Notes under the pieces: generated by a model
Seen by the model: the letters and a program-made list of their open reading frames with translations, nothing else
What the model was told of the DNA's origin: nothing
The model's database searches: none
Translations under genes and position numbers: made by a program
Shown here: one piece after another, positions 1,401 to 64,000 of the stretch
How positions within the stretch are numbered: the first letter of the stretch is position 1
Layout of the letters: each line of letters starts with the position of its first letter
Source of the DNA: Cantharellus purpuraceus
Taxonomy: Eukaryota > Basidiomycota > Agaricomycetes > Cantharellales > Hydnaceae
Assembly: GCA_025174535.1 (NCBI GenBank)
Contig: JALBUN010000001.1
Coordinates: 3,162,001 to 3,226,000 of the forward strand
DNA length: 64,000 nucleotides
Direction: 5' to 3'

Positions 1401-2322
1401 TTAGATTCCGATCTCTTTCTTGACGGGTTTGGTCTTGGCCCGAGATCTCCTTTTGGCTCCTTCAGGAGTATGTCGGACTCGAAGCCAATCCTCCTGTGCA
1501 CAGACGGGGTCTCTTTCCCAATGCCTTTTACGGGCATCCGGTCTTGATGAGATGTTAGTGGGCAGCGCGAGCGGAAATTGATAGGTGGGGCGTACCTTTT
1601 GAATCCGGAGCCACAACCGTGACAGCGGTAGGGAGTTTCTCCAGTATGTGAGCGTTTGTGTCCTGGTGGATAAAAATATGGATATGTAAGGAACGTTAGA
1701 CGTAATGAAGATTATACTGACGGTCACGGTCGTGAGCTGAGAAGTAAGGTATGAGCATGAGCAAGAGCTTGGAAGAAGTGGTAGCTTACATCGAGCAAAC
1801 GCTGCCTGACATATGTCACAAGCGTACGGGCGCAACTCGTCGACCACCTATATGGTGAACATCAGAATCAGCTGTAGCAGTGAAGAGGGTAAACCAATCT
1901 ACCTCAGAGGCAGACTTGCTCTTTCGACCACGAAACATTCGCGTGTAGGTGTTTTCAGCAGTATAGGTGACATGGTGCCCGGGGGAGAACGTTTCCGGCG
2001 CGTATGCAAAGTCGGAGGGGGTAAACGAGTGGACGAGGGACCCGTTATACATGTTCCCCTGGTCTGATGGAGAGACCCACATGACAGCAGGCATTCCGTT
2101 CAAGTCTTCGTACATGCAGTGTTCGGGGGGGAGAGAATAGGAAATCAGACTCTGGTCCGTGGAGTATGTACGCAGGGGAGGGTATGGCTTGAGAAGGTGC
2201 GGTGACGAGTTGTCGGGGATGAGCTGGGGGGTAGACAACTCTGCTTCGGTCATCGCTGGGCTATCTTCGTAATATGTATATCCTTGCGCAAGCTCGGTGT
2301 AGCTACTGCATGGGAAGTTCAT
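1401..2322 (-). CDS. C2H2-type zinc-finger protein, probable transcription factor
   Basis: Five exons: 2322-1903, 1847-1790, 1736-1722, 1662-1596 and 1542-1401, giving 233 residues. The first 140 residues are low-complexity, rich in Ser, Pro and Tyr, with no recognised domain. The C-terminus holds two tandem fingers. The first is a textbook C-x2-C-x12-H-x3-H finger starting RPYACDIC and followed by the TGETPY linker; the second (CHGC, then x12, H, later C) is C2HC. Correct Cys/His spacing is reached only if a 15-nt micro-exon (1736-1722) is included, which also keeps frame through three introns of 53 to 59 nt. The role is inferred: sequence-specific DNA binding in the nucleus. Targets are unknown. 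ATG 2322 is the first in-frame start. Confidence 0.8.
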
Positions 2323-3345
2323 ATTTGATTCTTAACCCGTGCATGAGCATATGGCAGTAACGCGCATATAGGCAAACTCACTTTTTAAAGACGGACGTCG
2401 GTCTCAAAAGACAAGGCGTGGCAAGTGTCGACAGGGAGACGAGAGTCAGCAGCCAAAAAACGGAAAGGGAGAGAGGGCTTTTTTAAAGTCACGTCCATAG
2501 CCAGAGCGATCAAGATCAGGGAAAGAAGCAGGGTATACGTTAAGCGTTAATCTAGATTTGTTTGAATTCCTGTAACCCCGTCACATCTTTGAATGGCAGG
2601 AGAAGAAGACCGTTGCTGGGACCTGCTCTACCTACAAGGGACCCACTTGTTAAAATTCCGGGGACTTGGCGGCGCTGATAGCGGCACAACGATTTTGACA
2701 TTTTTTTAAGTGACGGAAGTTTGCCGGAGCGCATCTGAATGTGTAGAAAATATGCGACTCTTCCATTGGAGCCATCGTCCTGGACCGGATTATGACGGAT
2801 TATCCAGAGTTTCGAACGATCTTGCCAGGACGGGAGTACATTGATCACTATATAGGGTATAGTCTCAAAAGTGAATTCATTGAGGGGCACAAAACAAGCC
2901 GATAACTCACACAGTAGCGGGGGAAAAGAAGCCCAAGAAGCGACCAATCCTGAAACATTAACTCTACAGTAGCATCAGGATGTACCCAGCACACAAAAAT
3001 ACCTCACCGAAGCTCCACGTCGATACTTTGGTAGGCACTCATATTCGTGGGCAGGGTCCTGGAATGAAACGTCATGTTCTCTCGTATTTCGCACTGCACA
3101 CATACAATAATAATCAGGATATTGGAATCCTTGGCTGCCCCCGACTCATTCGGATTCGGGCCAACTAAGGTGCCGATCTCCAACAAACTTGAGTGGATAC
3201 GCGCCAAAGTGTGATAAGGTGCTCTCGGCGGCGCGCGGGTATGACAAGCTAACTGGGGTTTTCATTTTGTGTGATTGACCGCTGGTGCCACACTGACTGG
3301 GTCCACGTGGGTCCGCACCACTTTCCTGTCACAGAAATTTTCTCT
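2323..3345. other. Divergent intergenic region between zinc-finger gene and EMC7
   Basis: About 1 kb separates the start codons of the two divergent genes. It is unusually long for this region and includes polypurine runs at 2450-2480. A minus-strand ORF of 131 codons at 2947-2552 lacks a recognisable domain and is treated as chance or unproven. A long regulatory region for the zinc-finger gene is a reasonable inference. Confidence 0.4.
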
Positions 3346-4398
3346 ATGCCTCGCTACACGGTAACATGTCTGCTACTCATGAGGTCCTCTCCATCCTCAC
3401 GTCCTCCTCTCGTGTTCTCCCGTGTTAACTTGTCTTCAGTCTGTCTCTCCTCTCCAGTGTCGTCACTGCTTTCGACGTAACCGGCAGGATAGCCTGGAAT
3501 GATATCTGTCATGGTGCATCGTCCCTTCTGCATTTCCGCCACCGGACACTTATTCCCAGCCGCAGGTTATCAGGATATCCAAGGTGCCAAGGTGGCTCTC
3601 GATGATGGGCGATGGTCAGGTTATGTCTGCAGGGACGGTCGTTTCACCATGTAAGTGTTGAACTTCTTTTACCACGTCATTCTGTCATCGAAATATTAAA
3701 TCTCATTTCCCTTGCAGTCCAAACGTCGACCCAGGAATTCACGTCCTGTCTGTCGTTTCGCATGGCTTTCAATTCGACCAGGTCAGTCAACCCAGGCTCG
3801 GGACGATGTGTCAACGTTGACAGTGGTCATTGCCGAGCTAGTTTCGGATAGATGTGTCGACTATGGACCCTCACGCCTCAGCCCACGCCTATATTCCTGG
3901 CACACCGCTTGTTCCAGCCCCTCCTGTCAGCGTACCATACCCCATTATCCTGTCAGCTCGTTCCAGATATTCATACTTTGTTGAGCGAGAAGGGTTCAAC
4001 CCTCTGGATATGCTCAAGAGCCCTATGATGCTGATGATGCTTGTCACCGGTGGTTTACTATTCGCTACGCCCTATCTGATGGTATGTGGCACTCGTCGGG
4101 TGGCCGGCAGCTTTTGACAGCATTTCGCAGGCCAACATGGACCAGGAGACGCTCAGTGAAGTCAAGGAGCGACAGGGCAAGCTGCTTGCTGCTCAAAACT
4201 CGATCCAGAATATGGATATTGGCGGGTACAATGATATTTTATTTTTGGCGAGAACCTAAATGCTAACTGGGCGCCTATAGTATCACAAACTTGCTAGGTG
4301 GTGCAGAGTCTGACAATGCTCCCAAGTCAGCCAAGCCGGCTGCGCCGATGGCTGTAGCAGTCCCCGGGAAAGGCAAGGGAAAGACAAGGAAGCGGTGA
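3346..4398 (+). CDS. EMC7: ER membrane protein complex subunit 7 (EMC7/Sop4 type)
   Basis: Seven exons: 3346-3383, 3440-3513, 3560-3650, 3718-3781, 3842-4081, 4131-4225 and 4281-4398, giving 239 residues. Residues 1-23 form a clear signal peptide that appears only when the 56-nt first intron is removed. Next comes the EMC7 beta-sandwich, with FDVTGRI, a GYVCRDGRFTI strand and PNVDPGIHVLSV, about residues 24-145. One membrane segment (MMLMMLVTGGLLFATPYLM) lies near residues 150-170, followed by a cytosolic tail ending in a Lys/Arg cluster. This is a single-pass ER protein whose lumenal domain caps the EMC insertase, which inserts tail-anchored and multipass proteins. Branch-like TTAAC and GCTAAC motifs sit in introns 1 and 6. 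Identity is firm; the exact N-terminal exon is the least certain part. Confidence 0.88.
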
Positions 4399-6384
4399 TG
4401 AGTATTCAATTGGCCAAACATCCATTACTTTGAGGCGTTTGAGCTGCTCCCAGACAGGGCCTACTTTCGTCCGCCATTATTCCCTCCATATTTAGCCTTT
4501 CGTCAGTTTTCTTGTGGCGCTCACGTGTCAAAGTTCATTCAAAACGTCGGCGACCTCCAGCTAAATTAAATAGAAGTTGTTTTGACTGGTATCTCGGAGC
4601 TGTCAGATTCTGTCAAACCAGGATGGATTTGGCAATCATGGTTCGCGAAGAATGTCGCGTGAGCATGGATGGACCCCGGTTTCTTTTTGCAGGACTAAGG
4701 CTTTTGAGAAGTACCGTTGGTTGTAGCTTGTCCATACCACGCGAATCAGAGTGGGATCTGAACGTATCCAGGCACCTAATCTCTTGTACCCAAGAACGCC
4801 ATTTTCTGATCAAGTTGGGGCGTTTTGGATTCCTTTGTCACAGCCCCGTGTCTACCAACTATTCGGTGATAGTGTCGTCTTGTTAATCCATCAAATGGAT
4901 CAAGTGGAGGTGTATTGTTCTTGGAGCGAAAATTTTAGGACGACGTGAAATGACTATCAAAGGGAGATGAGCACATTCTCATCACATTGGCCCATTGGCT
5001 TCCAGAAGTAGCGCGTGGGGCTCTAACATGCTCGTATTTGATAGACTGATATGCGACGTTTAGCGAGAATGTGCCAGTGCATGAAAGGTGTAAAGTCCGA
5101 ACAACATTCATTCACAGCCACAAATAGAGGTCTCATGAAATTGTATAGTGTTCCTTCATCCCCCTTGACTGAGCGCAGAGTGGAGTGTGAACCACAAGGT
5201 CAAGTCAAAAGTGAATTGTGCACTACAATCACGGGGAACGAGAGTGCATACCGCTCGGCAGGGTCTAGAGTTCGATGACAAGACATCCATTTTTAAGCGC
5301 ACTCTGTCGAATTCATCGCTTCACCATCCGGACCGTCCGATGACTGTCCGCATGCGGTGACCCTGCATGTCGAAATCCTGTCTTCTCAAGACTTGTGTAA
5401 CAAGGGGGCAATTGCTTTTAGGATAGTTGCGGATCTTGTGGAAACGAGTAGTTGGTGTGGCCCTGGGATTGAGTTGGCTTCGTATTTTTGGGTTCTTTGT
5501 GCTGAGCTATTCCAACAGAGAAGGCATATGTTTTCTGACCCGACGGGCGATGAGGCACCATCCTGACGCTTAGCTGAGGCTTGTGATAAGTGGATGATGG
5601 GACTTGATAAATAAAGAGTGTAAGGGTCGATATTGGTAGCATATCCGAGCCAAAGACTTGAGCTTGAGATCTTGGGGGCTGCACACAGCGTTTGGGAGCA
5701 CCGTGGACCAAAAAGCAAAGAGTACAAAAGTCGCCTACCGACGCAAGAAATCAGGCAGGCTTTCTAGCAAGTCATTCGAGAAGACAGAAACCCGTGCTGG
5801 GGACTGGCACATCGAGCCAAACGAAGATGAGAAGGCAGACGGATAGGTCAGGGCAAGCCCGGCACCATGTATACATGTCATTGTCTGACACCATGTCCAA
5901 TTCTCTCAATGACATGCAAACCTTATATCATAATAGTAAGACATAGGTAGACCCAAGCCCGTTTCAGCTCAGTTTTTCTGGATGTTTTTGTCCTTTTTGT
6001 CGTCTCTGTTTTCCAAGAATAAACAGCTCAGGGATGTCGAGACAAGTGTCACAATGTCACCCAAGATGCAGAGGAGTTGACGTGTTGTTTTTCTTGGCGA
6101 AATGGGGACAGCTGAACTTTATGGAAAGGCTGGGTCATAGATGTAGAGTTGTCTCCAACTCCAGACGTTGTCTCCAGATGTATCAGCTCTTGTCGACAAC
6201 ATATCGATTATTGCAGAGGCAGATTTTAATCGGAGTTTGCAAGGAGTTCGTCTCGCGCTCCGCTCTAACTGGCAGGCGACGGAATGGCAGCCAAATCTAA
6301 CACTGGCTGCTTCCGAGTGCCACCGTTCATCCCGTACTTCCAGCGCAACCAACTTTTCCCTCATTAATCACCGCCTCAGGCATC
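4399..6384. other. Intergenic region, no gene recognised
   Basis: Nearly 2 kb between EMC7 and ITC1 with no protein family that I can recognise. Several overlapping ORFs of 60 to 125 codons occur on both strands (for example 4512-4886 plus, 5727-5386 minus), but none shows a motif or extends through plausible splice sites. For this gene-dense stretch the gap is large, so an unrecognised fast-evolving gene or a noncoding RNA cannot be excluded. Confidence 0.35.
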
Positions 6385-9300
6385 ATGCCAACATGCAGGC
6401 GCAAGAGAGTGATGCTCAAGGAGCTCACGTCTTCCCTACTTGAAGAGGCCCAAAGAGACCCCTCTACGCCCGTTTTCTACATGGAGCAAACCGGCGAGAT
6501 TTTCACAGACTATGAGTATGGCATCTCACCCCATCTGCCTACGTTTTTCTCACGTTTTTGGATAGATCATACGCCGCTCGCCTTTCCTTCTACAAGCTCA
6601 AACAGTTTCAGTGTGAAGTTACTGGCAAGAGTGGTTTAGACTACTTTCAGGCTCTTGAGAGTGAACAGCAAGAAGCCAGAACTCTGCATACGCGATTCCC
6701 ACAACCACTTAAAGCACCTGTTCTTCGTGCAGTCCAATGGCGTGAGCTCATTAGACTTTGATCCTGTCTGATGTTCCATGTTCCTGATCGAGACGCTTTC
6801 GTTTTCAGAGGTCATAGGTAGGCTGGATCACTTGGTCGAAGCCGTCTATGAGCGTTTTAAAGATCGGTACTTCGAGGGTGAACGTGCGTCAGATGGGGTT
6901 TTGTCTTCCTTCCAGAACATTGACCGTCATACGAATTAGGTGTCTACATTGATGTACAAGGAGACAGGTGAGGATGAGTGATATCATGACTCTCTTACCC
7001 GTCTTAACAATGTCTTATGCACAAAGATACTGGGCCCGCGTAGTGAAAGTTTTTCCACCCCGATCCTTGCGCACACGCGCATCATCCTCCACCAGTGATT
7101 CCATATCGCCTCCGTCAGATGATGAGATAGAGCCACACCGCCTCTCAGGGGACCTTAAGCAACCCATTGCGCAGCTGAACGCTACTGATGAACCGAAAAG
7201 TTATTATTATAAAGTTCAGCTCATTGAGGAAGGTACCACCAGCGACGCTGACCATCCCGACGTTAAAGGAAAAGGGAGGCCGTCGGCACCATCAGCAAAA
7301 TGGGGCGCTAGCTTGATGGAAGTGCAGTGCGATGCAATGAGGTAATCTTTTCTTGCAAGTTGCTCTCACAGTCTTCCCCTGACTATTTATTTCTCAGTCG
7401 TGATCGTCTCTCGTTCTCAAAGTCTATACTTCGTCGATTTATCAGAGATTGCGTCGATCGCGATGCCGCAGTTGCGAGCCCTTGGACAGTCAAGAAGTCT
7501 ATCGCCGACAAGTACGGGGTTGAGAACGTTATGCCTGAGGAGACCAGGAAGGGTGTACAAGAGGTTAAGAATAAGGAAATCGAGAAGCGCAAGAAAGTCT
7601 GGGAAGATAAAGATGGTCCACCGTCCAAGAGGCAAAAGAAACTTGAAGAACGTGGTAAGCGCTCCATCGATAATCGACGGCCTGGCCTGAAGCGTCGCTC
7701 CGCAGCTGCTAAAGGAGGCAAAGTCAATGAAGAAGACAAACGCGCCAAGAAGGAAGAAGCAACAACTAGACATCAGCAAGAACACCAATCCTCTTCCAAC
7801 CCCATCACTACCGCTACTCAGAAGAAACGATATATCAAATATCCTACAGAGGATCTAGACGTCGTTTTATCGCAGAGGGAAAGAGCAAAACGAATGGCAA
7901 CGAACGGGCATGCCAAGTCAGTCAGACCCACTCCGTGTACAGAGTTTCCGTTCGAGGCACCTGTATTTGAATCACTTCTGATGATCTGGGCCTTTTTTGC
8001 TGCCTTTGGGTACGTGGTGTTTGGAACTGAATGTAAAATCGTGTCGAATTTTGCGGCTTCTAGGGTCCCGCTGAAGTTATCACCGTTTACATTGGACGAC
8101 ATAGAACATGCAATACGACATTCAGATTCTGATCAACCTGTAACTCTCATAGCGGAGATTCACAGTTCGCTCATATACGCCCTCCGAGCGCTTTCTACAC
8201 ACCGCCATCTAGCTGTACTATCTCTTCTAGAGGAAATGGACGAGACGGAGATGAAAGGTGGAGTTCACACTGAAGTCCTTACAGACGCTTTAGCAGAAAT
8301 TGGTAATAATTGGGAGAGGCAACCTCTGAGAGCAGATGAGGGTAGGTATGGCTGGGAAGAGGCTATGATTGGTTGTATTAAAGACGTAGGTCATCTTACA
8401 ATACCACCTTACGAGTTTTTACAGCTGATTATTATATGCAATGTTTTCAGCAAGCAACTGTCACGACATTTCCTAAACTTAGAGGAGTCCTAACGAGGCT
8501 CTTGTTTGTACCTGACCCTGACATACCCGATTCCACCACTTCGGGGGGTTTGGCAACAAGTGATTCTGATATCATTCCAACCATCCGTCGCGCTAGCCCC
8601 GGAGAGCGTTATTACCTCCTTCCCCCTGAAGACAAGATTGCCATCCTTGCTTTCCTCTGCGACGCGGTCGTATCTCACAAGGAAATTCATACGTACATGG
8701 AGACTTGTGAGGCCAACCTGACGCAATTAAGGAAAGAGAAAATCGAGGTGAAAAAGGAAAGGAAGAAAATGCAAGTCGACGTTTCTTTGTCTACTGTTTG
8801 ACCAGTATTTAACTTGTTTGTCGTCACAGTCAGGAGGAAATGAGCGCTCTTGTCAAAGACGAACCTTCCGCTAGTAATGGACTCAAAGAGACAAATGATG
8901 CCACGGAGTCCAAAGAGTCAAAAGAGTCTAAAGAGTCTAAGGAGTCCAAAGAGTCTAAGGAGTCCAAAGAGTCTAAGGAGTCCAAAGAGTCTAAGGAGTC
9001 CAAAGAGCCCAAGGAGTCCAAAGAGTCAAAAGAGTCTAAGGAGTCCAAAGAGTCCAAGGACATCCAGGATGGCGACCAAGACGAGGTGGAAGTCGAATCA
9101 GTCCTCAGCGATTTTGATTCAATCATCTCACCACTCTCGGACATCGACTGCTCTGATGCCGAGACCGCATCAGGCGCAGAGAGAGGTCGTTCAGGATCTA
9201 GTCGCCAGAAGGCTCTACGGCTTAAGGTACAGAGCCAAGCTCATGCCAAACAGCGAGAGATTGCTCGCGCAAAGACTGCGTCTGCAAAGCAAGCTCAAGC

Positions 9301-47907: not shown

Positions 47908-49075
47908 TGTTAAGGGCTGGGACACAGGGTTCAATGGGGCAACCATAGTTTGGATGCTAGAGATGTATGGAGAGGGACTTTACTGTTCTAGTTCAACTAG
48001 AGACAGAGTAGGTGATAACTATTGAGTTGGATCAAGTGGACTTGGCTTCAACTTGTGTGTTGTGCCCTCTTGGATCATTGGTCCAATATTTCAGAGTTCA
48101 GGAGTATGGAGTTGGATCAGAGATCCAGAGTTTGACTTGTCAAGAAGCTAGCAACCAAGAAGATAGAGGTCAAACTTAGTTGATATATGAACTACTGTAA
48201 CATACAGAGAATAGCCCATATAAGTATATGAAGAATTGAATGAAAAACTAGAGTAGGGGAACAATAGGATGGATATTGAATACAACATGAAAAGGAGTTT
48301 GGAGTTTGGACTCAAGTCCAAATGAATACTAATCAATGACGGTTATTGTAACCCATATCAAGGAAATTACTTATCAAGAGAACAATAGATGGAGTTTGGG
48401 GTTGTTGGAGGTGGAGTTGATAGACATCAAGTAGATGGGGATGGAGATGGAGATGGAGATGGAGATGGAGATGGAGATGGAGATGGAGATGGAGATGGAG
48501 ATGGAGATGGAGATGGAGATGGAGATGGAGATGGAGATGGAGATGGAGATGGAGATGGAGATGGAGATGGAGATGGAGATGGAGATGGAGATGGAGATGG
48601 AGATGGAGATGGAGATGGAGATGGAGATGGAGATGGAGATGGAGATGGAGATGGAGATGGAGATGGAGATGGAGATGGAGATGGAGATGGAGATGGAGAT
48701 GGAGATGGAGATGGAGATGGAGATGGAGATGGAGATGGAGATGGAGATGGAGATGGAGATGGAGATGGAGATGGAGATGGAGATGGAGATGGATATGGAG
48801 ATGGAGATGGAGATGGAGATGGAGATGGAGATGGAGATGGAGATGGAGATGGAGATGGAGATGGAGATGGAGATGGAGATGGAGATGGAGATGGAGATGG
48901 AGATGGAGATGGAGATGGAGATGGAGATGGAGATGGAGATGGAGATGGAGATGGAGATGGAGATGGAGATGGAGATGGAGATGGAGATGGAGATGGAGAT
49001 GGAGATGGAGATGGAGATGGAGATGGAGATGGAGATGGAGTCCAGAGATTGGACTTGGTGTTACAGGATGTAACA
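47908..49075 (-). mobile_element. LTR family 2, copy with giant hexanucleotide expansion
   Basis: Begins TGTTAAGGG and ends GGATGTAACA. Outside its repeat tract it matches the solo LTR at 50167-50892 over several hundred bases, for example GGACTTGGCTTCAACTTGTG, CATATAAGTAT and GGAGTTTGGGGTTG. The edges (TATAC left, CAAAC right) do not form a target-site duplication. Orientation is inferred from the minus-strand ORF that follows. Confidence 0.75.
48442..49040. repeat. (GGAGAT)n microsatellite, about 100 units
   Basis: Nearly perfect hexanucleotide tract of about 600 bp with one visible variant unit (GGATAT at 48791). All six reading frames are free of stops (Gly-Asp, Glu-Met, Arg-Trp, Leu-His, Ile-Ser, Ser-Pro), so the long ORFs of 212 to 299 codons across it are artefacts and not genes. 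Confidence 0.97.
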
Positions 49076-50166
49076 CAAACTCAAAGAGTTTGCCCAGCTG
49101 TTTAGCATCCTTGGAGAGACAGGAGGAGACCATGTTCATGGTCATAGTCCTCCCAGATTGGGTCAGTATCATCCCAATCTTGACCCTTGAGGGTTCAAGG
49201 GTCAATCTGAGGTGGTTTGCCCAGGTGATCATCCTCCTTGGTGAGATTGATCATTTCCCATGATGATGATGCCATAGGTTGTGATGAAGGAATGGCAGGC
49301 AATGATTTGCCTGCTGTAGTGTGTGATGATGATGCTACTGGGGCCAAGTGCACTGTCATGAGCTTGGTTTTAAATGTAGGAGGTGCCTTTGTGGCAACCT
49401 CCTTAAATGATTTTAACTCATTCTTGAGACAAGTCACTTCAGACTTCTCTTGTTTGAGAAGTTCTTCAAGTTCTTGGACCTGTATGAACAGGTCCAAATT
49501 GTCCTTGAATAGCTTATTGTAATCTTTATGATGAGCATTTGCAACATTGTCTTTGATGTCATGGATCAATTGTGGCCATGTGATTCTCAATGCCCTCTCC
49601 ACCAAAGCAGTGGAGAGATATAGTCAGCTCCTGTTCTGAGCCTTGATCAAGTGCAAGACATAGTTGTTGCACTTTTGGCACTCATGAGGGTGATAGATGG
49701 CAGCACCTCCATGCCATCCACTGATCTTCCAGGTCATCTTATCTTGATGACCTTGGATCATTTCTGCAGCACTCATTATGGGTGTTGCAGATGTGGAAGG
49801 TTGTTCCACTTCCATTGGATGTTTATTTTGAGTATCCATTATCTCCCTTCTGGGAGATGATATTTTTGGATAAGGGGGTGATGGTGGTTTGGAGAAGCAC
49901 CATTAGCCTTTTTATGGCTATACCTGAAAAATTCTTATTGGGGATTTTTCTCAGTGACTAGGTGACATGGGCATGATGTGATTAATTATCACCTGTGCCT
50001 TTCATGCTACCATGGGTAGCATGAAGATGAACTGCTATCAAGCTGCCTTTTACTGTGGCAGCTCTATCCCACCTAGGAACTACCATTATTCAAGGTAGTT
50101 CCTCCCCTTCTTATTGAGCTGCCATCAGTGATGGTAGCTCCTCATTGCTTTCCACTAGGAGCTACC
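49076..50166 (-). mobile_element. Retroelement internal region with one ORF interrupted by TGA
   Basis: A minus-strand frame from 49839 to 49195 reads as one protein of about 214 residues with a single TGA at 49626-49624 (QNRS-stop-LYLSTALVERAL). The N-terminal part has GGAAIYHPHECQKCNNYV with a Cys pair; the later part is a coiled coil (VQELEELLKQEKSEVTCLK). I do not recognise a named family; it resembles gag-like basidiomycete hypotheticals. The flanks are full of short perfect hairpins, for example 49841-49858, 50076-50102 and 50133-50166. Confidence 0.55.
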
Positions 50167-50892
50167 TGTTAAGTGTCTGGGACAACTTGGGGTTCAATGG
50201 AAAAGGCCAGAGTTTGGCTGCTAGTAAAGAGGGAGATGGGACTTTACTGTTCCAGTTCAACTGGAGACAGAGTGGGAGCAATACTAGTGAGTCAGATCAA
50301 GTGGACTTGGCTTCAACTTGTGTGTTGTGCCCCCTTGGATCATCGGTCCAATATTTCAGAGTTCAGAGTATGGAGTTGGATCAGAGATCCGGAGTTCAAC
50401 TTGTCAAGAAGGTACTTGTCAAGAAGCTAGCAACCAAGAAGTTAATGGGGCAAATCTTAGTTGATATACGAACTACTGTAATAGACAGAGAGTAGCCCAT
50501 ATAAGTATGTGGAGAATTGAATGCTGAAACTAAAACAATAAAACAATAAGACAGATGGGGAGTACAACATGGAAAGGAGTTTGGAGTTTGGACCCAAGTC
50601 TAAACTGAAACTAAACAATAATAGAGAAGGAGGTTTGTTGTAACCCATAAGAAGGAACTACTTATAGAGAGAACAATAATGGAGTTTGGGGTTGATGGAG
50701 GTGGAGTTGATGGAGGTGGAGTTGATGGAGGTGGAGTTGATGGAGGTGGAGTTGATGGAGGTGGAGTTGATGGAGGTGGAGTTGATGGAGGTGGAGTTGA
50801 TGGAGGTGGAGTTGATGGAGGTGGAGTTGATGGAGGTGGAGTTGAAGGAGATGGAGGTCTGGAGTTTGGACTTGGTGTTACAGGATGTAACA
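50167..50892 (-). mobile_element. Solo LTR family 2 with 5-bp target-site duplication
   Basis: TGTTAAGTG to GGATGTAACA, 726 bp, flanked on both sides by CTACC (50162-50166 and 50893-50897). This is a clean insertion signature of an LTR retrotransposon reduced to one LTR. The insertion point lies exactly at the end of a perfect hairpin arm (GGTAGCTCCT at 50133 pairing with AGGAGCTACC ending 50166). Confidence 0.88.
50687..50855. repeat. 15-bp minisatellite inside LTR family 2
   Basis: About eleven copies of GATGGAGGTGGAGTT. It sits at the same place in the LTR as the GGAGAT tract in the other copy, so the two tracts are alternative expansions of one site. It is not CRISPR: there are no spacers. 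Confidence 0.95.
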
Positions 50893-51383: not shown

Positions 51384-51660
51384 TGTTAATGGATGTCTTA
51401 GTTCACACCGTTGCATGGAACTCAACCAAGTGTATTGGTTGGGTGATGTGCTGTACAGTGTGGTAGTTACTAAGTGCTGTCTACTATATGTGGACCCACA
51501 CATGTACTTGGGTCCACTGGCTTACATAATAACTATACATATGCACCCTATGGGTGCATATATCTATCAAGAAGACAGCATTCCTTAATGGAATGCTGCA
51601 TACATTAATTATAACTATCTAGCTATATACTATAGCAAGTAAGTACCTTGGGTACTTACA
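51384..51660 (-). mobile_element. LTR family 3 (277 bp), 3' LTR of minus-strand hairpin-rich element
   Basis: On the minus strand it runs TGTAAGTACC to CCATTAACA. It is the same length as the plus-oriented copy at 60051-60327. Immediately inside (51661-51673, minus) is the purine tract AAAAAGGGGAGGG, a typical polypurine tract for second-strand priming. The LTR itself contains hairpins such as GCATTCC and GGAATGC, TATGCACCC and GGGTGCATA, and AAGTACC and GGTACTT. Confidence 0.85.
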
Positions 51661-53068
51661 CCCTCCCCTTTTTGAATGAGGCACAATCTCATTCAGTACC
51701 TTTTAATCATACAGCTCCTTATGGAGCTGTTCCAATGAGTCAGTGTCCATATGGTCATCTTGTTCATATGGCTCTGGAGGGGGATGGCTCTCAGTCGTTG
51801 TTATGACTATATTCATTAACGCCCAGATCCCCATCTGATCCACTCAGATCCCCATGCATATGAAATCTATATTCCATTTGGAAACCGTCACGTCTCCATT
51901 TATCTGTCTGATTGTCACCGCCGAATCTCACCCATCTGTCTCTGGTTCCAATTGATGCATCAGCATCACCATAGGAACCTGGACATCCGTCCCCATTGGA
52001 CTCGGACATACTCATGTAAGGCCGACAGCCTTGGAGACCCATCACTGGAGTAATTATTATTAGATTTCAAATATATATTTAAGCTGTCCAACTGGGGACT
52101 TCATCCCCAGTTTGAATATTGAATCATGCCTAGTTCCTAAGTCCAATCCTAACTATCTAAGTCATACTCCATCTCTGAAATCTCAGACACCAGTATTAGT
52201 GAGGGTGCAGCACATAAGCTGAAGCCAAGTCTGTTCTGACCCCCATGACATACCCTGATTCCCTCTCCAACTCCAACCCAACCTCTGACCCAACCTCCGA
52301 CCCCCATTCGGACCTAGTGTGTAACAGTTGTCCCTGACATGGTTGCAGTATCCTCATCCACTTGAATGGATGAGAAGGATGCAATTGCTACTGCAGCATC
52401 CCAATTGAGTTCACAATTAAGTTGATTGTGACTTAAATGCTCAGCAAGAGAGTGTTTAGCAGCTTTATGAGCTGCTTGGGAGGCTCCCTGAGTCTCCTGC
52501 TTTTGCTTACCAACCCTGGTGGGCTGGTTAAATGCTGCTCTGGAGGTAATGTGTTTAGCAAACTCCTCTAATATAGCAGTGTGATTGGGGATGATGCCTC
52601 CCAGTTGTCCAAACCAGAGTGCAAGCTCTAATTCAGTATGTTCTTTGGGGGAATGATTCCCCCAATCATATGCTCCAGTGACTGAAGTGTGGAAGGTGTC
52701 ACCAAGAGTTGGTGAGAACTTTTGACCACTGGTCAATAATCCCCAGTGGCTGGGATTTTGGAACATAGTCCAGAGGTTCTTTTTAAATACAGAAGAGCCC
52801 TTCTTGGGAGTGGCCTTTTGTAGCCACATCCAGACATCCACATTGGACAAGTTCATAGTACCATCCAATTTCTGTTGGATGGCTGGGGGGACCCCATTAG
52901 GGTTTACTTGCCACCCCTGTATGAGGGCAAGTGTATCTACTGGTGTGGTCAGTAGAGTGATGATAAGACTCGCATTATCAGCACGAGCCAGTAGAGTCAT
53001 TCTCTTGATGACTCTGCACATCAGTACAGTCCGTTCCACAAATGGCGTGGCCAATGCCTTTTTATGGA
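51661..53068 (-). mobile_element. 3' coding region of hairpin-rich element, split by an LTR
   Basis: A minus-strand frame enters from 53068, runs to 52327, is broken by the family 1 LTR at 51799-52326 and resumes at 51798 to a TAA at 51703. Joined conceptually across the insertion, the flanking codons read SGTT then TESHPPPEPYEQ, ending LEQLHKELYD. The protein has no motif I recognise (SNVDVWMWLQKATPKKGSSV, FGQLGGIIPNHTAILEEFA). The same protein occurs at 63262-63700 on the plus strand. Hairpins are dense throughout. Confidence 0.7.
51799..52326 (+). mobile_element. Solo LTR family 1 inside the hairpin-rich element
   Basis: TGTTATGACT to GTGTAACA, 528 bp, flanked by GTCGT (51794-51798) and GTTGT (52327-52331), a 5-bp duplication with one C/T difference. 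It splits an ORF that is otherwise continuous, so it is younger than the host element. Confidence 0.88.
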
Positions 53069-56108: not shown

Positions 56109-57279
56109 CCGGTGGAGTTGATTGAGCAGAACAGGTGGCGAGGAGCATTGGATCAGAGAGGTGAACCTGGAATGTTTGTGAGCCATCCAGTTTGCTTAGT
56201 CTGGTGAAGACCATAGTGTCCACCACTGATATAGACAGAGGGGTAGGCAGAGTATCTATTGGAGCAGAGTCAGCAGAGGCGGAAGATAATTTTGCACCTA
56301 TCGTTGCTGGTGACATCAGGGATGACACAGCCTGCACTGGAGAACAGAATGTGATATGGCCCAATGCCCAGTCAATCAACGGATTGTAGCGGGTGAGCCA
56401 ATTATGTCCAAGAACCACAGAACAGCTGGAGTCAAGTGGAGTAACATAGAATGCAAGGTTCTGGATTTCTCTGACAGAAAAATGGATAGACAGATCTATA
56501 GCTTGTGAAATAACAGCATTAGTAGTGCCATCAAATAATCAGAGTGATATCGGAGTTATGGTGTATGTATGGAGTTTATGTAAATTGGAAAAAGTGGAAT
56601 CAAGGAAACAGTGAGTAGAACCAGAGTCAATTAATGCTTGGATAGTGGTATCAGGAATGGAGTCAGAGTAGACAAGGAGGGTAAGAGAGTTGGAGTGAGA
56701 AGGAGTGGATGCATTCAGGTGGACCTTGTTTGTCATATGGGGAGTACCAATGCAGCCCTCAGCCTGTATGGAGGCTAGAGGACTGCTTACTATTTTTTTG
56801 AGTCTGTCATAGCATTGGTGGCATGGCCCTTTGCCTTTGCTGCAGACAAGGTTGCCTTGTTGCAATCCTTGGCTTGGTGACCTGGCTTTCTGCAGAACAG
56901 ACAGAGGTTGTTGTCCATGCAGTGCTGGCATTCCTGCTGGGTAAGTTTGCCATCCATTCCCAGCTTGGTGGAGAGGTCCAGAGTGCTCTCGCAAGCTCTG
57001 GAGTTGTTGCCAAAGCTGGAGTTGTTCTGACCGGAACCGGAACCGGTGGCATTACCAGTATTTGACTTCTGGCCAGAGTTGGGGGTGGTCTTCTTATCGG
57101 ACCCCTTGTTGGACTTTGGAGTCTTGTCTGACAATTTGTCCGATTTGTTGTTAGCTGAATTTTCATGGGAGACCTTGGATTGACATTCCCAATAACGGGT
57201 GTTGATGGATTGGGTGAGCTTGTGAAGGTTAACCAGAGTATCCGGCTTACCAACGTGTGATATCTCGTCCTTGATGCAG
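56109..57279 (-). pseudogene. Ty3/Gypsy gag nucleocapsid and protease region
   Basis: On the minus strand: end of gag (HVGKPDTLVNLHKLTQSINT), a Lys/Ser/Asn-rich linker, a CCHC zinc knuckle (CLFCRKPGHQAKDC), then a retropepsin (IQALIDSGSTHCFLD with catalytic DSG) and [17 protein letters not shown] that leads to RT. Several stops split the frame. Solo family 4 LTRs bound it on both sides, so it is the middle of one Gypsy copy. Confidence 0.85.
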
Positions 57280-59365
57280 TGTTGGTTTGCTTAAGGAATA
57301 GATCCTATAAGCCTGCACACAACGGTCCTAGCAAACAGACGGTGTGTAATGCAGTTGTTCAGCATGCCAAAGAACAATCAGGTCGAGGGATAGGGGTAGC
57401 ACTGAGTAACAGGAAAGTGTAATAGTGCTCTGTGATTGGATGAGGATGGGAGCAAAAAGGACGGTCCAGATGGCTGATCATGCTCTGTGACTGGATGACA
57501 ATGGGGAGCCCGGTTGGGAAGTATGTGAAAGCTGGTTTCAGGAGATGTGACCTCTCAGTGGTGGAGGGAAATCTGATCATTGAACTAAGGTGCTTTACCT
57601 CAGTGTAGAGCTGATGGATTGTGATATAGAGTGTAGAGCATAGACTTAGAGCATGGACTTTGACTTTAGAACGTTGGCTGAAAACTTGTTGATTGATTCC
57701 AAAAGGCGAATACACCCTTTTATATACAAATCCCCAGGGCACAACGACACAATATGAGGAGCAAATGATGTGATATGATGCAAGAAATGCTGATCAAGCC
57801 AGCTGATGAAGTGTGTGAAGTTGAACTACTAATGGGGAAATCATGGAGAAATGAAGCGACAGATAGGGGTAATCTTTGTAAGAATAGGAGATGATGAGTA
57901 ATAAAAGAACCAAAAATAGAACAAGGATGAGTAAGTCATGTATGAATGAATTAAAAGATGAAACAGGGGTGAGTCATATAAAAGAACAATAGAAACGTCC
58001 ACCAATACCATCTTCCCTACGGCTCTGAAGGTAAATTGACCCTGAGTCACATGAGGACTTCAGTCAGCATCCACAACAAATACTCCTTATTGTCTTAGTG
58101 ATCTGTCTCCATATGGTATCCCGTTCCAAGTGTTGAAAAAATTTCGCTTTGCTGGGGGTGTGTGGAGAGTAGATTTCGAATAGGGACAGAGGGAGTGATG
58201 GGAACTGGATGTATGCGTAATCGAATTGAAGATATACTTGAGTAGTATCTTCCTACTAAGTTTGATGAAATTTGGTGTGATCTTCGTCTAGATATTGACA
58301 ATTTGAGCAGGGATCAGGAGCAGATGACTGAACGAGAGTAAATGCTTAATAGAAAATCAACCAGTGGAGCTCAGGCTTCACAAACTGGGATTAGAATATA
58401 TGTTGCAATACTCTGGAAGAGTATGCAAAAGATTGTAGAAATACGCGTTCGTTCTGGAGTTATTCCAGAAACGAATAGTTCAGACACTTCTCTAGTCCAT
58501 TGCATATCTAGCTAGGCGTGTTTTATACAAGATATGCATGTTAATAACTCGTGATAAAAGTTCTGTGTCATTTGAATAAAGGGAAAGTGATTTATGATAA
58601 AAACAAAATGGGGGGTGATGTCAAATAGGGAAAAATGACGAAATAAATCAAAAGAAAAATTAGGGTGAATGTTCAGATCATTGTGGAGCTTACAGGGGCT
58701 CCTCCTTTCCCCTCTCAGTCATTTCTCCTCATCTCCTTATCCCCTCCTAAGCTCCTGAGCCTCCTATATGCTCCTATCCCTCCTATCCCCTCTGTTCCAC
58801 CAAGGATATTCAGTCCCTTTGCCTGACACGATGTAACCTGAGTCGGATTGAAGTGGGAGGATAGGTCCGCGATGGTGACTGAAACTCTACCTCACATTCA
58901 ACTCTTCTGTCCGTGTTACGATATAGAGGTGAAATACCGAGGAATGTATATGGTTCAACAGAATTGTGAAAGAATATAGGATTGCCAATGGCATAAGAGA
59001 GACATGGTGGGGATCTTGGACGTTGAAAGAGTTTTGGGAGTATTTTGACATGTGGAGGTGGCTTAGCATGCCCATGGAGCTTGGCGTATTTTTGATAGTC
59101 CTCTGTGTCCAGAGACCAGTGTGATGTATTATTAGAAGAGATGTTGGAGAGGGGAATAGAATTGGAAGCCATGTGAATGATGATGAAAGGATTGGTGTGA
59201 ATAGAAGGCTGATAATGATCGATGGCAGAAACATGAGTGACAATCGATGGCTAGAATTAGAGACTGAGGTGGAGAGGGAGTTGCAGCGCTATTTGATATG
59301 GACACTGGCAGAGTTGGACTGTCAGAGTAGTTTGTTATACGTCCTCGATGCGTCCTGGCTTGTCA
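57280..59365. mobile_element. Solo LTR family 4, copy 2, itself interrupted
   Basis: TGTTGGTTTGC to GGCTTGTCA. Minus the nested 669-bp insertion and its duplication it is 1412 bp, matching copy 1. The flanks GCAG and GCGG are a 4-bp duplication with one change. It interrupts gag between GLPSR and IKDEISHVGKP. Confidence 0.85.
58131..58799. mobile_element. Nested solo LTR (family 5) with 5-bp target-site duplication
   Basis: 669 bp from TGTTGAAAAAATTTCGC to CTGTTCCA, flanked by CCAAG (58126-58130 and 58800-58804). Copy 1 of LTR family 4 has the uninterrupted site near 55530, so the borders are supported by an empty site. There is no coding content. Confidence 0.88.
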
Positions 59366-59953
59366 GCGGGATGGGAGACCAACGTAAAATTGGCATTGGA
59401 GTGCAGTGTTGCCCCATTGGACTTTCAGAGCTAGCTGCTGGAAACTCACAATGTATTTTGCAATCTTGTGATTTTCCTTCATCTGAAGTCGATCAAGTTC
59501 ATTCTCAGCATCAGCCTTGGGGTTATGAGGACCAAAATTGGTCTGGAGTTTGGAGATGAAGTTGGAGCAGTCTTCTGACTATATCAGGTCATCGGAGTCA
59601 TCCATGAGTGCTGGCTTGAAGTAGTCCAGTGCGGTGCCCTTGAGATAGGACATGGCAAAGGTGACCTTTGCCCAATTGGATGTGAACATGTCAGGGCAGT
59701 CACAGAAATTCAACCGGCATTGCATCAAGAATGGTTGGAGCTTGTGCAGATTGGAGCCATTGAATGGGTCAGGTTCCCAGACCTTGGTCTGGGACTTAGG
59801 AGCTTGTGGGGTACAGATGCTGCTGGCAAGCAGGGAGATGGCTTGCACCAGATTTGGGGAGGGTGGAGTATCGTCCTCTTCATTGACAGCCTCTATGTGG
59901 CCCGTCGGTTCTTCAACAACCTCAGGGATGGTGTTGATGCTGGGAGCAGGCAC
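59366..59953 (-). pseudogene. Ty3/Gypsy gag, N-terminal half, minus strand
   Basis: Mirrors the gag at 53665 (EEDDTPPSPNLVQAISLLAS, EPDPFNGSNLHKLQPFLMQC) and continues through SYLKGTALDYFKPALMDDSD. It then runs toward GNTALQCQFYVGLPSR at 59366, where LTR family 4 is inserted. One stop (near 59580) interrupts it. Confidence 0.85.
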
Positions 59954-60050: not shown

Positions 60051-60327
60051 TGTAAGTACCCAAGGTACTTACTTTCTATAGTATATAGCTAGATAGTTAT
60101 AATTAATGTATGCAGCATTCCATTAAGGAATGCTGTCTTCTTGATAGATATATGCACCCATAGGGTGCATATGTATAGTTATTATGTAAGCCAGTGGACC
60201 CAAGTACACATGTGGGTCCACATATAGTAGACAGCACTTAGTAACTACCACACTGTACGGCACATTGCCCAACCAATACACTTGGTTGAGTTCTGTGCAA
60301 CAGTGTGAACTAAGACATCCATTATCA
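60051..60327 (+). mobile_element. LTR family 3 (277 bp), 5' LTR of the plus-strand hairpin-rich element
   Basis: TGTAAGTACC to CATTATCA, the same length as the reverse copy at 51384-51660. It is followed by an internal region with gag, zinc knuckle and protease in the same direction, so it is the 5' LTR. Confidence 0.85.
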
Positions 60328-60732
60328 CTTTTTTGAACTTCCAAAGGAAGAATCAATTGATTCTTCCTCATTATTGAAGTTTTCTAGTCAACACTAGAAA
60401 ACCGGCTGTTGCTAGTGTACAGATGTATACCAATCCCCCCCAGTCGCTCATATAAGTGAGCAACTAGTAGACTAACTTAGTTAGCCTACAAAGACAGAAG
60501 AAAGAAAGGAGTCATCATAATGATGACTCACAGTAGAGTGAGTTGTGCTGGCAGCACACAGGACATAATAAATGATGAACGGTGGCACATAGCCAGCAGC
60601 AGAGAAGGGGAGCTAGACTCTAGAGAAGTTGCAGGGACTTCTCGTAAGGAAGACTCTAGAAGAGAGTTGCCACAATCGTGAGACCACACAGATGATCACA
60701 CAATAGATCATCTGTCAAACAAGAACCCTTCA

Positions 60733-61107
60733 TTGAGTGGTTCTTTGATTAGAGAAGAAAGGAGGAGACAGTCATCCACTGTCTCCAATGTTCCTAAAGG
60801 AAAGGAGCATGCTCAATATATGAGCACAAGTAGTAGAAGTAGCAATACTTCTACTAGGGAATTGTGCAGCATGGAGCGGCATGAAACCCACAGGTCAATC
60901 ACAAGATTGACTGAACAACTCATGTGTAATCAACATGAGATGAAGAGCATTAGCAAAGCTAGTGCTCAGGCAGCTAAGATGGCTGCTGAAGCAGGGCATG
61001 CTGCCACTACTATGGGGCAGCAAATAGCAGAGCTAGGAACAATGTTAAAATCACTCCAAGAGAACTCTGAGCGACACAAGTCGCATCACCAAAGATCAGA
61101 TTCTTGA
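60733..61107 (+). pseudogene. Helical gag N-terminal region, frame broken by TGA
   Basis: Reads MSGSLIREERRRQSSTVSN, then HRSITRLTEQLMCNQHEMKS and ASAQAAKMAAEAGHAATTMG, a Ser-rich head followed by helices. After the TGA (61105-61107) the same frame continues QESESRESGPPWGERIQLND, so the stop probably replaced a CGA. A separate frame at 61184-61444 (AKELNQEIELWKQREVEASH) is a coiled coil that may belong to the same protein after a frameshift. Confidence 0.6.
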
Positions 61108-61711
61108 CAAGAATCTGAATCCAGAGAGTCTGGACCTCCCTGGGGTGAGAGGATCCAACTGAATGATTGGTTAGACAGAGGAAATGAAATTCCCCCAATG
61201 GAGGGAATTAGAGACCCAGTCACAGCAAGGATTACCAATCCAGATTGAAGAGGAAACTCCTCAATCTATGGCAAAGGAGCTCAATCAAGAGATTGAGCTA
61301 TGGAAACAACGAGAAGTTGAGGCTTCTCATAAACATAGATTAGCCCTCAAACAGCAGGCTAAACATGCAGAGCAAGAGCTCAGCCAGCTGTTTAGAGAGC
61401 AGCAGCCCCAGCAAGAGCTCAATGTGGCTGTCGATTTAAATTGACAGTCACAACATGCGCTGAACAGTTATCAGCGTGTACGAGCAGCAGGCCTCTCAGG
61501 AGACACCTGCCATGAGCAACGAGATACCCAATGGGTACCTCAAGAAGATGTTCCCCATAATAGGGAACAATCAGTGCCATTGACCCTAGAAGGTCAAGGC
61601 ATACCGGATCAATTGGACACAATTGATCCTATCAATGGCATTACTCACATGGTGTGAGTAGCCATAGTCAATAATAGAGACACAGACCCAGAGAAGTCTG
61701 TACTTGCCAAG

Positions 61712-62221
61712 GTGGGCATTAAAGTATTGCCTCCTGAGCAATACGCAGGAGGTGCAGATCTCAAAGAGTTTGAGATCTTTGTAGCAGGTATGCTACAATG
61801 GCTGAAGATGAATAATCTCCTAGGGCCATCAAGTACAAAGTTTCAGCTATTGTACTTAGGCACTCGCCTTAAAGGTGAGGCCCAGGAATGGTTCTACAGG
61901 AATGTAGAACACTACGACAGGGCAGTCCAAGACTGGACCCTGGAAACTGCAATCCAAGGATTGCAGCATAGATTCCTACACACCCTGACACATCACTATG
62001 CATCACATAAATTTGACTCTGTAATACAGGGTCAAAGGACCGTTCACAAATTAATGAATGACCTAGATAAGTACGTGGGTCGCATGATAATGCCACCAGA
62101 CACATACACATACAGGAAGAGGTTTGTAATCGCAATGCATGAACCTCTGAGACAAGAAGTCCTCAAGAAGGGCTTCAATGCCAAATTTAGCAGTATCAAG
62201 CAGTTGTACAAAACTGCTTGA
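61712..62221 (+). pseudogene. Retrotransposon gag capsid domain, frame broken by TGA
   Basis: 169 codons reading VLPPEQYAGGADLKEFEIFV, GMLQWLKMNNLLGPSSTKFQ, YLGTRLKGEAQEWFYRNVEH and GLQHRFLHTLTHHYA, typical of retrotransposon gag (PF03732-like). The frame continues beyond TGA 62219 as MIEEVT, another TGA, YHHSMQHPENM, and a third TGA. All three fit CGA codons. The upstream start is uncertain, as the frame is open before 61712. Confidence 0.75.
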
Positions 62222-62539
62222 ATGATAGAGGAAGTGACGTGATACCACCACAGTATGCAACACCCGGAGAACATGACTAACGCATCCTCCTCAACCCATA
62301 GACCAGTAGTCAATAGAATTACTGGTATGATGAATATGGGGAGTTGACCCACACCCCAAGGATGTGTGTATACAGCTCCCAACACACACTCATGACAAGC
62401 AAGTGTGTCAAGGTTGGAACCCCATAATGAAAGCTCTGGGCCCAATTCCAATAATTACCTTTTCAAGAGTAATTATCAATTGAAACCACCAGCACACACG
62501 AGTGGTAATTGATCGAACAACATTACTGGTAACATTGTG

Positions 62540-62581
62540 TGCTATGAATGTGGCCAGACAGGTCACATGCGACCTAGCTGC
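62540..62581 (+). other. CCHC zinc knuckle (nucleocapsid)
   Basis: CYECGQTGHMRPSC, a C-x2-C-x4-H-x4-C knuckle that binds genomic RNA. The DNA that encodes it contains the inverted repeat TGTGGCC and GGTCACA, so the knuckle codons lie in a hairpin. Confidence 0.85.
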
Positions 62582-63083
62582 CCCAAATTAAAGGGCAACA
62601 TAAGATTGGCTGTGGTCCAAAAGGACATGTCCTCACACATAGTGGAGGATATAAAGTAGACAGATTCTCCCCGATAGAGGGAGAACATGAAGAAGCAATG
62701 GATAATCCCAAGGACCATCTAGACAAAAAAATGCCAGCTATAGAAGTGACTGACGAATGGGATGAAGAGGTCGCCCCATATGAATGGGATGATTAATATG
62801 ACACCCCCAAAAGGGAGGCTACACCAATGTATCACTCTAATGTGATATGTATTTGACCCAATGATTGAATTCCACCGAGACACACCTATGCAGTGCATTT
62901 CTGTAGTGCAACAAGATTCCTGAGAAACAGGGAATCACGACAGCTGCATATAGCTGCTGTCAGTGTCGACAGATCAGCTGAACCTATGTATAATCATAGG
63001 AGCCAACAGAAGTTGACAGCATGACCAGATAGACCGCACATAGACAACAAAACAATCTCTGGGTATTGGGAGATTGGTGGAAC

Positions 63084-63250
63084 ACTAGCCCACTGTCAAT
63101 TAGACAGTGGAAGTGAGGGGATAATGATATCCCCTGAATTCACATGCACGACAGGTATGAAAACCTTCACGCTAGAGCAACCCATTGCACTGCAATTAGT
63201 GTGCATTGGGAGCAGGAGTACCATAAATTATGGTACTCACACTACCACCA
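63084..63250 (+). pseudogene. Retropepsin-like aspartic protease fragment
   Basis: GTLAHCQLDSGSEGIMISPE carries the D-S-G catalytic motif, followed by LEQPIALQLVCIGSRSTINY. The frame stays open into the next ORF at 63262, but the fold appears truncated after HTTTNVEYYD. The DSG codons (63103-63111) lie in a perfect inverted repeat (CCACTGTC at 63090 and GACAGTGG ending 63110). Confidence 0.75.
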
Positions 63251-63261
63251 ATGTTGAGTAT

Positions 63262-63700
63262 TATGATGCCATGCCATTTGCAGAACGGACTGTACTGATG
63301 TGCAGAGTCATCAAGAGAATGACTCTACTGGCTCATGCTGATAATGCAAGTCTTATTGTCACTCTACCAACCACACCAGTAGACACACTTGCCCTCATAC
63401 AGGGGTGGCAAGTAAACCCTAATGAGGTCCCCCCAGCCATCCAACAGAAATTGGATGGTACTATGAACTTGTCCAATGTGGATGTCTGGATGTGGCTACA
63501 AAAGGCCACTCCCAAGAAGGGTTCTTCTGTATTTAAGAAGAACCTCTGGACTATGTTCCAGAATCCTGGCCACTGGGGATTATTGACCAGTGGTCAAAAG
63601 TTCTTACCAACTCTTGGTGACACCTTTTGCACTTCAGTCACTGGAGCATATGATTGGGGGAATCATTCCCCCAAAGAACGTACTGAATTAGAGCTTGCAC
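63262..63700 (+). pseudogene. 3' ORF of hairpin-rich element, truncated by LTR
   Basis: AERTVLMCRVIKRMTLLAHA through DNASLIVTLPTTPVDTLALI, LDGTMNLSNVDVWMWLQKAT and YDWGNHSPKERTELELAL, where the family 4 LTR begins at 63701. It is nearly identical to the minus-strand copy at 53060-52610, which continues FGQLGGIIPNHTAILEEFAK. No known domain is recognised. Confidence 0.65.
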
Positions 63701-64000
63701 TGTCGGTTCGCTTAAGGAATAGATCCTATAAGCCTGCGTGCAACGGTCCTAGCAAAACAGACGGTGTGTGATGCAGTTGTTCAGCACTCCAAAGATCAAT
63801 CAGGGCAAGGGGTAAGTAACAGGGAAGTGGGATAGTGCTCTGTGGTTGGATGAGGATGGGAGCAAAAGGTCGGTCCCGATGGCTAATCGTGCTCTGTGAC
63901 TGGATGACAATGCAGAGCCCAGTTGGGAGGTATGCGAAAGCTGGTTTCAGGAGAAGCAACCTCTCGGTGGCGGAGGGAAATCTGATCGTTGAACCAAGGT
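63701..64000. mobile_element. LTR family 4, copy 3 (runs off the window)
   Basis: Starts TGTCGGTTCGCTTAAGG after TTGCAC and follows copy 1 (54692) closely to the window end. Confidence 0.85.

Follow-up and report, generated by a model that had tools for sequence, protein, structure and literature searches.

Short hairpins strung along a Ty3/gypsy retrotransposon family of Cantharellus purpuraceus

The 64,000-nucleotide stretch of Cantharellus purpuraceus DNA analysed here (contig JALBUN010000001.1, positions 3,162,001 to 3,226,000; hereafter, the window) carries at 60051-63700 what is, judged by its sequence, a truncated and internally deleted member of a multicopy Ty3/gypsy long terminal repeat (LTR) retrotransposon family of about 7.75 kb. 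Small hairpins occur along this family at a frequency of one per ~55 to 80 bases, in control regions as well as in coding sequence. The window copy consists of the following parts, in which RT stands for reverse transcriptase and ORF for open reading frame:

60051-60327, plus strand: 5' LTR with TG...CA ends, 277 bp, matched over 277 nt at 96% identity by window 51384-51660
60052-60072, 60113-60135, 60150-60172, 60194-60221 and 60270-60288: hairpins in this LTR, from the perfect-hairpin count
60682-61657, plus strand: N-terminal gag region, hairpin-dense, with open stretches (ORFs) at 60682-61107, 61175-61444 and 61445-61657
61658-62221, plus strand: capsid part of gag, 187 amino acids, 7 hairpins, Ty3_capsid-like (PF19259, E 6.1e-06)
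62540-62584, plus strand: CX2CX4HX4C motif, CYECGQTGHMRPSCP, read from the sequence, which we take to be a zinc knuckle
63025-63247, plus strand: protease region (LDSGSE), of which the internal deletion leaves only the start; longer homologue at L027:2902-3567
63247-63268: junction of the internal deletion, from copy alignments; RT, integrase and part of the 3' ORF region are gone
63268-63700, plus strand: 3' ORF piece (region downstream of integrase), hairpin-dense, with the element end; from copy alignments

A first-pass annotation, made from the letters alone, had described an LTR element. The LTR at 60051-60327 bears this out, but the copy has one LTR only (the 5'), followed by gag, the protease start, a deletion at ~63247/63268 and the 3' ORF piece, and it lacks a 3' LTR, RT and integrase. 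The capsid match is weak (26.2 bits, under the curated PF19259 cut-off of 29.1), and a Pfam search of the N-terminal gag stretches gave no credible match; the longer protease homologue is recognised as RVP_2 (E 5.3e-05, 23.5 bits, cut-off 20.3). Many copies' alignments to the window stop near 63247, where the left flank of the deletion matches locus L005 to 3051 (~L025 3339) and the right flank picks up at L025 6811-7243, to which 63268-63700 is 90.5% identical (95% to window 52619-53051, minus strand).

The organisation of the family is provided by other loci of the 40.15-Mb genome, in which gag matches at least 151 times when the best candidates alone are scored, a number that includes the window piece and in which some matches are pieces of one copy. 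The full-length copy L025 spans 183 to 7932, with LTRs at 183-452 and 7663-7932 (270 bp each, 93.3% identical) and a 5-bp target duplication, ATGAA, on either flank; a purine tract lies upstream of the 3' LTR in the family. In L027, the protease (2902-3567) is followed by RVT_1 (4218-4607), Integrase_H2C2 (5616-6101) and SH3_Tf2-1 (6453-6872), with an rve match (E 0.031) under the cut-off. The family is therefore like other Ty3/gypsy elements (Metaviridae) in the order of protease, RT and integrase, the Tf2-1-like C-terminal SH3 domain of integrase, the Ty3-type capsid, the LTR ends, the target duplication and the purine tract. It differs from them in a hairpin density that, in the tested coding pieces, is ~5 to 13 times that of shuffled sequence, and in a 3' ORF after integrase. 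None of three pieces of this ORF (L025:6988-7584 and L027:7709-8518 among them) matched Pfam, and for the L025 piece 2 protein relatives were found among 61 candidates from the protein collection; the region is also present at window 49195-49902, minus strand. Integrase matches in the genome, among the 150 listed, are either at least 53% or at most 43% identical, with a gap between. A more distant family within the genome, approached via P0048, was discarded since nearly all the matches listed belonged to the same family, and DNA relatives outside the genome were found neither in two viral_contigs scans (gag and integrase alignments) nor in one genome_contigs scan (gag).

Hairpins were counted when perfect and non-overlapping, with an arm of at least 7 bp and a loop of 0-15. 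The 3650 nt of window 60051-63700 hold 45 of them, against 3.07 +/- 1.91 (maximum 10) in 100 dinucleotide shuffles, and 19 with arms of at least 9 bp, against 0.15 expected from the density of window 1-50000. In 12 coding pieces (gag, upstream ORFs, protease, RT, three integrase pieces and 3' ORFs, some of them mutually homologous), 3-13 hairpins were counted against codon-shuffle means of 0.49-1.33, i.e., 4.8 to 13.5-fold; the counts were above the maximum of 500 codon shuffles in ten pieces and equal to it in two (window 61175-61441 and L027 5616-6101). The excess noticed in the first-pass annotation is thus real, and the host genes are indeed without the pattern, as 14 stop-to-stop frames of at least 200 amino acids in window 1-47500 contain 10 hairpins in 12,465 nt (0.80 per kb, against 0.82 per kb codon-shuffled). 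The pattern, said to run through gag, protease and LTR, was found in each of these and also in the RT, integrase and 3' ORF of the family. The spacing of 20 to 35 bases given there was too dense: the median distance between centres is 67 nt in the window copy (44 hairpins, loop up to 12), and 20 pooled copies give 57 hairpin axes over 3154 columns, ~1 per 55 nt. Seven of the eight hairpins quoted are exact, one of which, at 63117-63134, extends in full to 63116-63135, and the eighth, GTGGCTGTC/GACAGTCAC at 61424-61451, has one mismatch.

Across the genome, 20 gag loci with their flanks show 6.2-12.9 hairpins per kb, against 0.7-1.3 after shuffling, and five low-identity gag copies (L041-L045), which look like decayed family members, show 3.3-6.7. 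Five other RVT_1 loci, of which L047-L049 are mutually related, have 0.3, 1.0, 2.3, 1.3 and 0.7 per kb (0.9, 0.8, 1.0, 0.7 and 0.3 shuffled). A-rich composition, and nothing further, could favour an origin by chance, base composition or coincidence with protein coding; dinucleotide and codon shuffles fall far below the observed numbers, and mock pairing rules applied to the same alignments yield 15-25 hairpins with arms of at least 6 bp against 178 real ones, which leaves this explanation a practically negligible probability. An Rfam scan of the window gave no matches.

The geometry of the hairpins was studied in the hairpin-rich parts of 20 loci, in segments chosen by hairpin density. Among those with arms of at least 8 bp, the loop measures 0-11 nt in 638 and 12-20 nt in 37. 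For loops of up to 15, the 1130 hairpins divide by arm length into 7 (484), 8 (273), 9 (200), 10 (121), 11 (44), 12 (4) and longer (4), so that 1126 of the 1130 arms measure 7-12 bp and the longest 15 bp. These lengths bear on a route to small RNAs, another meaning proposed in the first-pass annotation, in which Dicer would process the hairpins. Such a route would suit a hairpin-dense element whose movement requires transcription, but Dicer products require ~20 paired nucleotides and no perfect arm comes near the ~20 bp or more of a Dicer-type precursor, which makes it highly improbable.

Scoring as physical structures, for which a loop needs at least 3 nt, gave 114 hairpins in two reference pieces; 39 of these have loops of 3-4 nt. 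The outer loop bases are complementary in 11 of these 39, against 9.75 expected; complementarity thus ends at the point beyond which bases can no longer pair, which is what selection for folding would predict. Predicted RNA folding, a check suggested in the first-pass annotation, points the same way: the mean folding z per 120 nt is -2.92 for the coding strand of the window element (-3.17 for the other strand), -3.17 for L027 600-9600 and -3.25 for L025 183-5500, against 0.05 in host window 20-32 kb and -0.10 in the five other RT loci, and the fraction of coding-strand stretches with z below -2 is 0.71-0.75.

Variation within the main family was compared in the window copy and 19 further loci (L022-L040), in window coordinates, with L011 and L017 left out and with CpG-type columns taken out ahead of all rate counts. 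Columns from 63205 on were excluded from the within-family rate tests, the spacing and folding analyses, the pooled axes and double-change counts and the base composition, and were retained for the CA/TG interchange counts, the LTR column coverage and the single-copy case at 61188/61209. A stem had to be called in at least two copies, and a variant was considered shared when present in at least three. Shared variants would predate insertion, and singletons would mostly be younger. Shared non-CpG variants occupy 8 of 748 stem positions, 11 of 261 loop positions and 46 of 1392 positions outside (Fisher p 0.0007 versus outside and 0.0028 versus loop), whereas the fractions of singleton-bearing sites are alike (stem 0.178, loop 0.188, outside 0.175). 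At gag third codon positions, shared variants number 0/60 in stems, 4/19 in loops and 7/70 outside (p 0.011 versus outside). No count of shared stem variants as low as the observed one arose when the stem map was shifted circularly (3124 shifts). A version based on a single reference, which is biased because the stem must be intact in that reference, gave 4/493, 9/177 and 52/1731 for stem, loop and outside, with 3 of 3124 shifts as low.

The comparison was extended to diverged relatives. At least three subfamilies are present in the genome. The copies A (inside L027), B (L051) and D (in the window) share 76-79% identity with copies of C, the main family; each is a single copy, and D, for which the region sampled differs from that of A and B, may be of the same subfamily as one of them. 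Apart from D, the window holds two further stretches of the main family:

49076-50167, minus strand: diverged fragment D, 3' ORF region, with conserved and compensated hairpins (76-79% identity to four main-family copies)
51384-51796, minus strand: 3' end and LTR of a second copy of the same family, from alignment
52619-53051, minus strand: second copy of the 3' ORF piece, from alignment

For this comparison, stems were those called in at least two sequences, hairpins unique to D, A or B being counted as outside. Fixed non-CpG differences between subfamilies affect 39 of 608 stem positions, 35 of 191 in loops and 140 of 773 outside. In the non-coding 3' end and LTR the corresponding values are 4/103, 3/23 and 29/131. 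D versus C is the strongest of the three alignments (25/366, 26/125 and 85/424), and A versus C, for the tail alone, is weak (7/88, 5/23 and 19/142; p 0.15 versus outside). Mock pairing rules with arms of at least 5 bp give 32/239, 27/171 and 28/143 in mock stems (0.134-0.196, against 0.134-0.137 outside), and this lack of depletion indicates that the subfamily effect is not made by the method. The constraint for self-complementarity claimed in the first-pass annotation is accordingly supported both within the family and between subfamilies, with few compensatory changes. In register there are five such pairs, whereas 24 slid registers average 0.46 and never exceed 2 (with arms of at least 8 bp, 4 against 0.29). 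One hairpin reads CTACC...GGTAG in D and CTACT...AGTAG in C; another reads GAGG...CCTC in A and B and GAGA...TCTC in C, with a half-changed state in one C copy. Co-variation of arms between copies, proposed earlier as a test, was thus seen between subfamilies but not within the main family, where none of 491 pairs has a non-CpG double change in at least two copies.

In that set, 26 of the 491 pairs do show two Watson-Crick types in at least two copies each, all of them transitions of the CpG-decay kind, and one non-CpG double change occurs in a single copy (61188/61209). Over window 60051-63247 and its copies, CA/TG interchange is strong at paired sites and the arms decay independently, as expected from CpG decay. 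Two other candidate signals were rejected: an apparent arm conversion at 63216-63238 (three changes in the right arm) sits at the deletion edge and was judged to be an aligner match to a neighbouring similar segment, and an A>G versus T>C asymmetry, considered as a trace of editing, is not concentrated in stems.

A different kind of change affects the loops. In an oriented check of seven candidate axes at which one copy carries the loop as its reverse complement, six held and one, in the RT region (L022/L028), was an artefact. Five lie in hairpins of the family: AGA to TCT in L034 (1 of 5 rows), ACAA to TTGT in L038 (1 of 18), ACCC versus GGGT between D and C (1 of 6), AAGA to TCTT in L032 (1 of 21) and TTT to AAA in L027 (1 of 4). 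The sixth is in L033 near 960, at the hairpin TGTCCATCATC...GATGATGGACA (1 of 6, compared with L026, L022, L047, L048 and L049); this inversion appears to lie in a different gypsy family, so that hairpin-loop inversion seems not to be confined to the hairpin-rich one. An automatic count over 1496 loop pairs with at least 3 differences found 118 reverse-complement, 2 reversed and 0 complement-only loops, a number inflated by long hairpins, whose sequence can also align to the opposite strand. From these inversions it seems that copying or recombination can switch at hairpin arms, and hairpins could plausibly arise in this way.

It could then be argued that the hairpins are a functionless mutational footprint, in which local template switching, by the RT or in replication, perfects imperfect inverted repeats. 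Their presence in all domains and the inverted copy found at each of five family hairpins, and also at one of apparently another family, fit this explanation, and template switching or a similar event, one of the meanings offered by the first-pass annotation, may well have taken place. Conversion alone, though, would have stems change as fast, as double changes, while stem differences are about one third as frequent and such non-CpG changes are missing from the 491 main-family pairs in two or more copies; nor does it account for the chance-level complementarity inside 3-4 nt loops or for the scarcity of hairpins in the five other RT loci of the same genome. In addition, two of the five inverted loops are merely 3 nt long. 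As the whole explanation, it is regarded as unlikely.

According to these data, long-lasting selection while the family was active probably kept the string of small hairpins, most likely on the genomic RNA, and a structured RNA genome is the best fit among the three meanings put forward in the first-pass annotation. That the folded strand was RNA and not DNA is held with modest odds. On the coding strand, unpaired columns are A-rich and T-poor (A 0.37-0.44, T 0.18-0.19; in stems, A 0.30, T 0.29), which fits a sense RNA, such unpaired A being more usual in structured RNA genomes. Selection could instead have acted on DNA hairpins, either in single-stranded cDNA during reverse transcription or as cruciforms, for example in the control of strand transfer or integration. 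G·U being no commoner than A·C agrees with this alternative, and the loop inversions suggest a hairpin role in DNA- or cDNA-level events; against it stand the A-rich unpaired sites and the lack of any known reason why one family alone should need such hairpins over its whole length, and we consider it quite unlikely.

Several results weigh against selection for RNA hairpins. G·U was found in 55 single-mismatch stems against 82 with A·C (388 versus 466 cells, and 7 versus 12 between subfamilies); selection at the RNA level should tolerate G·U, so this speaks against wobble tolerance or for a DNA stage. The within-family contrast weakens under the loosest stem definition (15/841 versus 38/1258, p 0.05), and copy coverage of the LTR columns is almost everywhere too thin for counts. 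To these must be added the want of recurrent double changes in the main family, one of the five compensatory pairs sitting in a weak hairpin, and the density at one of the five other RT loci (L048, 2.3 per kb against 1.0 shuffled). Finally, back-translated pairing in metagenomic gag homologues gave 0.815 against 0.812 shuffled, i.e., no overall covariation, with one of seven hairpins above nearly all shuffles.

Under selection on the folded strand, the active element would have had both coding and non-coding sequence selected for small self-contained hairpins, with arms mostly of 7-11 bp and loops of up to 11 nt. Selection would have acted on a single strand in folded form, most probably the genomic RNA, whose compact local self-pairing may shield it from antisense small RNAs, nucleases or misfolding, or else may present it to Gag. 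Hairpins may have been seeded and extended by template switching, and would have been kept by selection, with the exact loop inversions in single copies as a possible trace. As to the agent, it is suggested only tentatively that host RNA silencing or Gag packaging shaped the whole RNA genome into a chain of short hairpins with arms too short for Dicer.

Parts of this design are found in known systems. Genome-scale ordered RNA structure is a feature of persistent RNA viruses, which the element resembles in a folding energy well under that of shuffled sequence, coding regions included, over the tested length; it differs in consisting of separate perfect hairpins, mostly of 19-28 nt, in an LTR retrotransposon. 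Hairpin-loop (minute) inversions of chloroplast DNA affect isolated, mostly non-coding hairpins. The likeness lies in a loop between inverted arms that occurs in both orientations among related copies, and the difference in that the hairpins of the present family fill a mobile element and have conserved stems. The genomic RNA of yeast Ty3 has dispersed stable structure: a core of ~20% is well folded, highly structured regions make up as much as 30%, and short palindromes are proposed to act in dimerisation (PMC11381356). The available part of that report describes no small hairpins that recur regularly under selection within coding sequence. A precedent search by title and abstract, with most subscription papers outside its coverage, found no element of such design.

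Other repeats adjoin these copies. A direct repeat (57275-57591 and 63696-64000 of the window, 85-90% identity) lies on either side of the region and has between its arms a gag remnant on the minus strand (Retrotrans_gag, 59363-59578, E 5.4e-07); together they probably represent another repeat family adjoining the element. Next to fragment D, window 48427-49080 is a long simple repeat with several open frames (dipeptide repeats such as Gly-Asp and Met-Glu). The two flanks of the main-family element of L027 (76-578 and 9631-9913, reverse) look to be of one subfamily in reverse orientation, and this element appears to have inserted into a subfamily A element.

Every coding domain tested in the family shows self-complementarity, which has been kept at third codon positions of gag as well as in the LTR and 3' end; this suggests that selection for fine-scale folding can act on an entire retroelement genome. 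If this is true, the sequence would follow a dual-coding strategy, specifying protein and local self-complementarity at once, which to our knowledge has been described in no mobile element, and the chain of hairpins would leave less open RNA for antisense small RNAs. The many decaying copies and at least three subfamilies within one 40-Mb genome constitute a natural experiment, in which selection before insertion can be set against neutral decay after it, and they may allow the role of RNA structure in LTR retrotransposons to be addressed directly, be it in silencing escape, packaging or reverse transcription.

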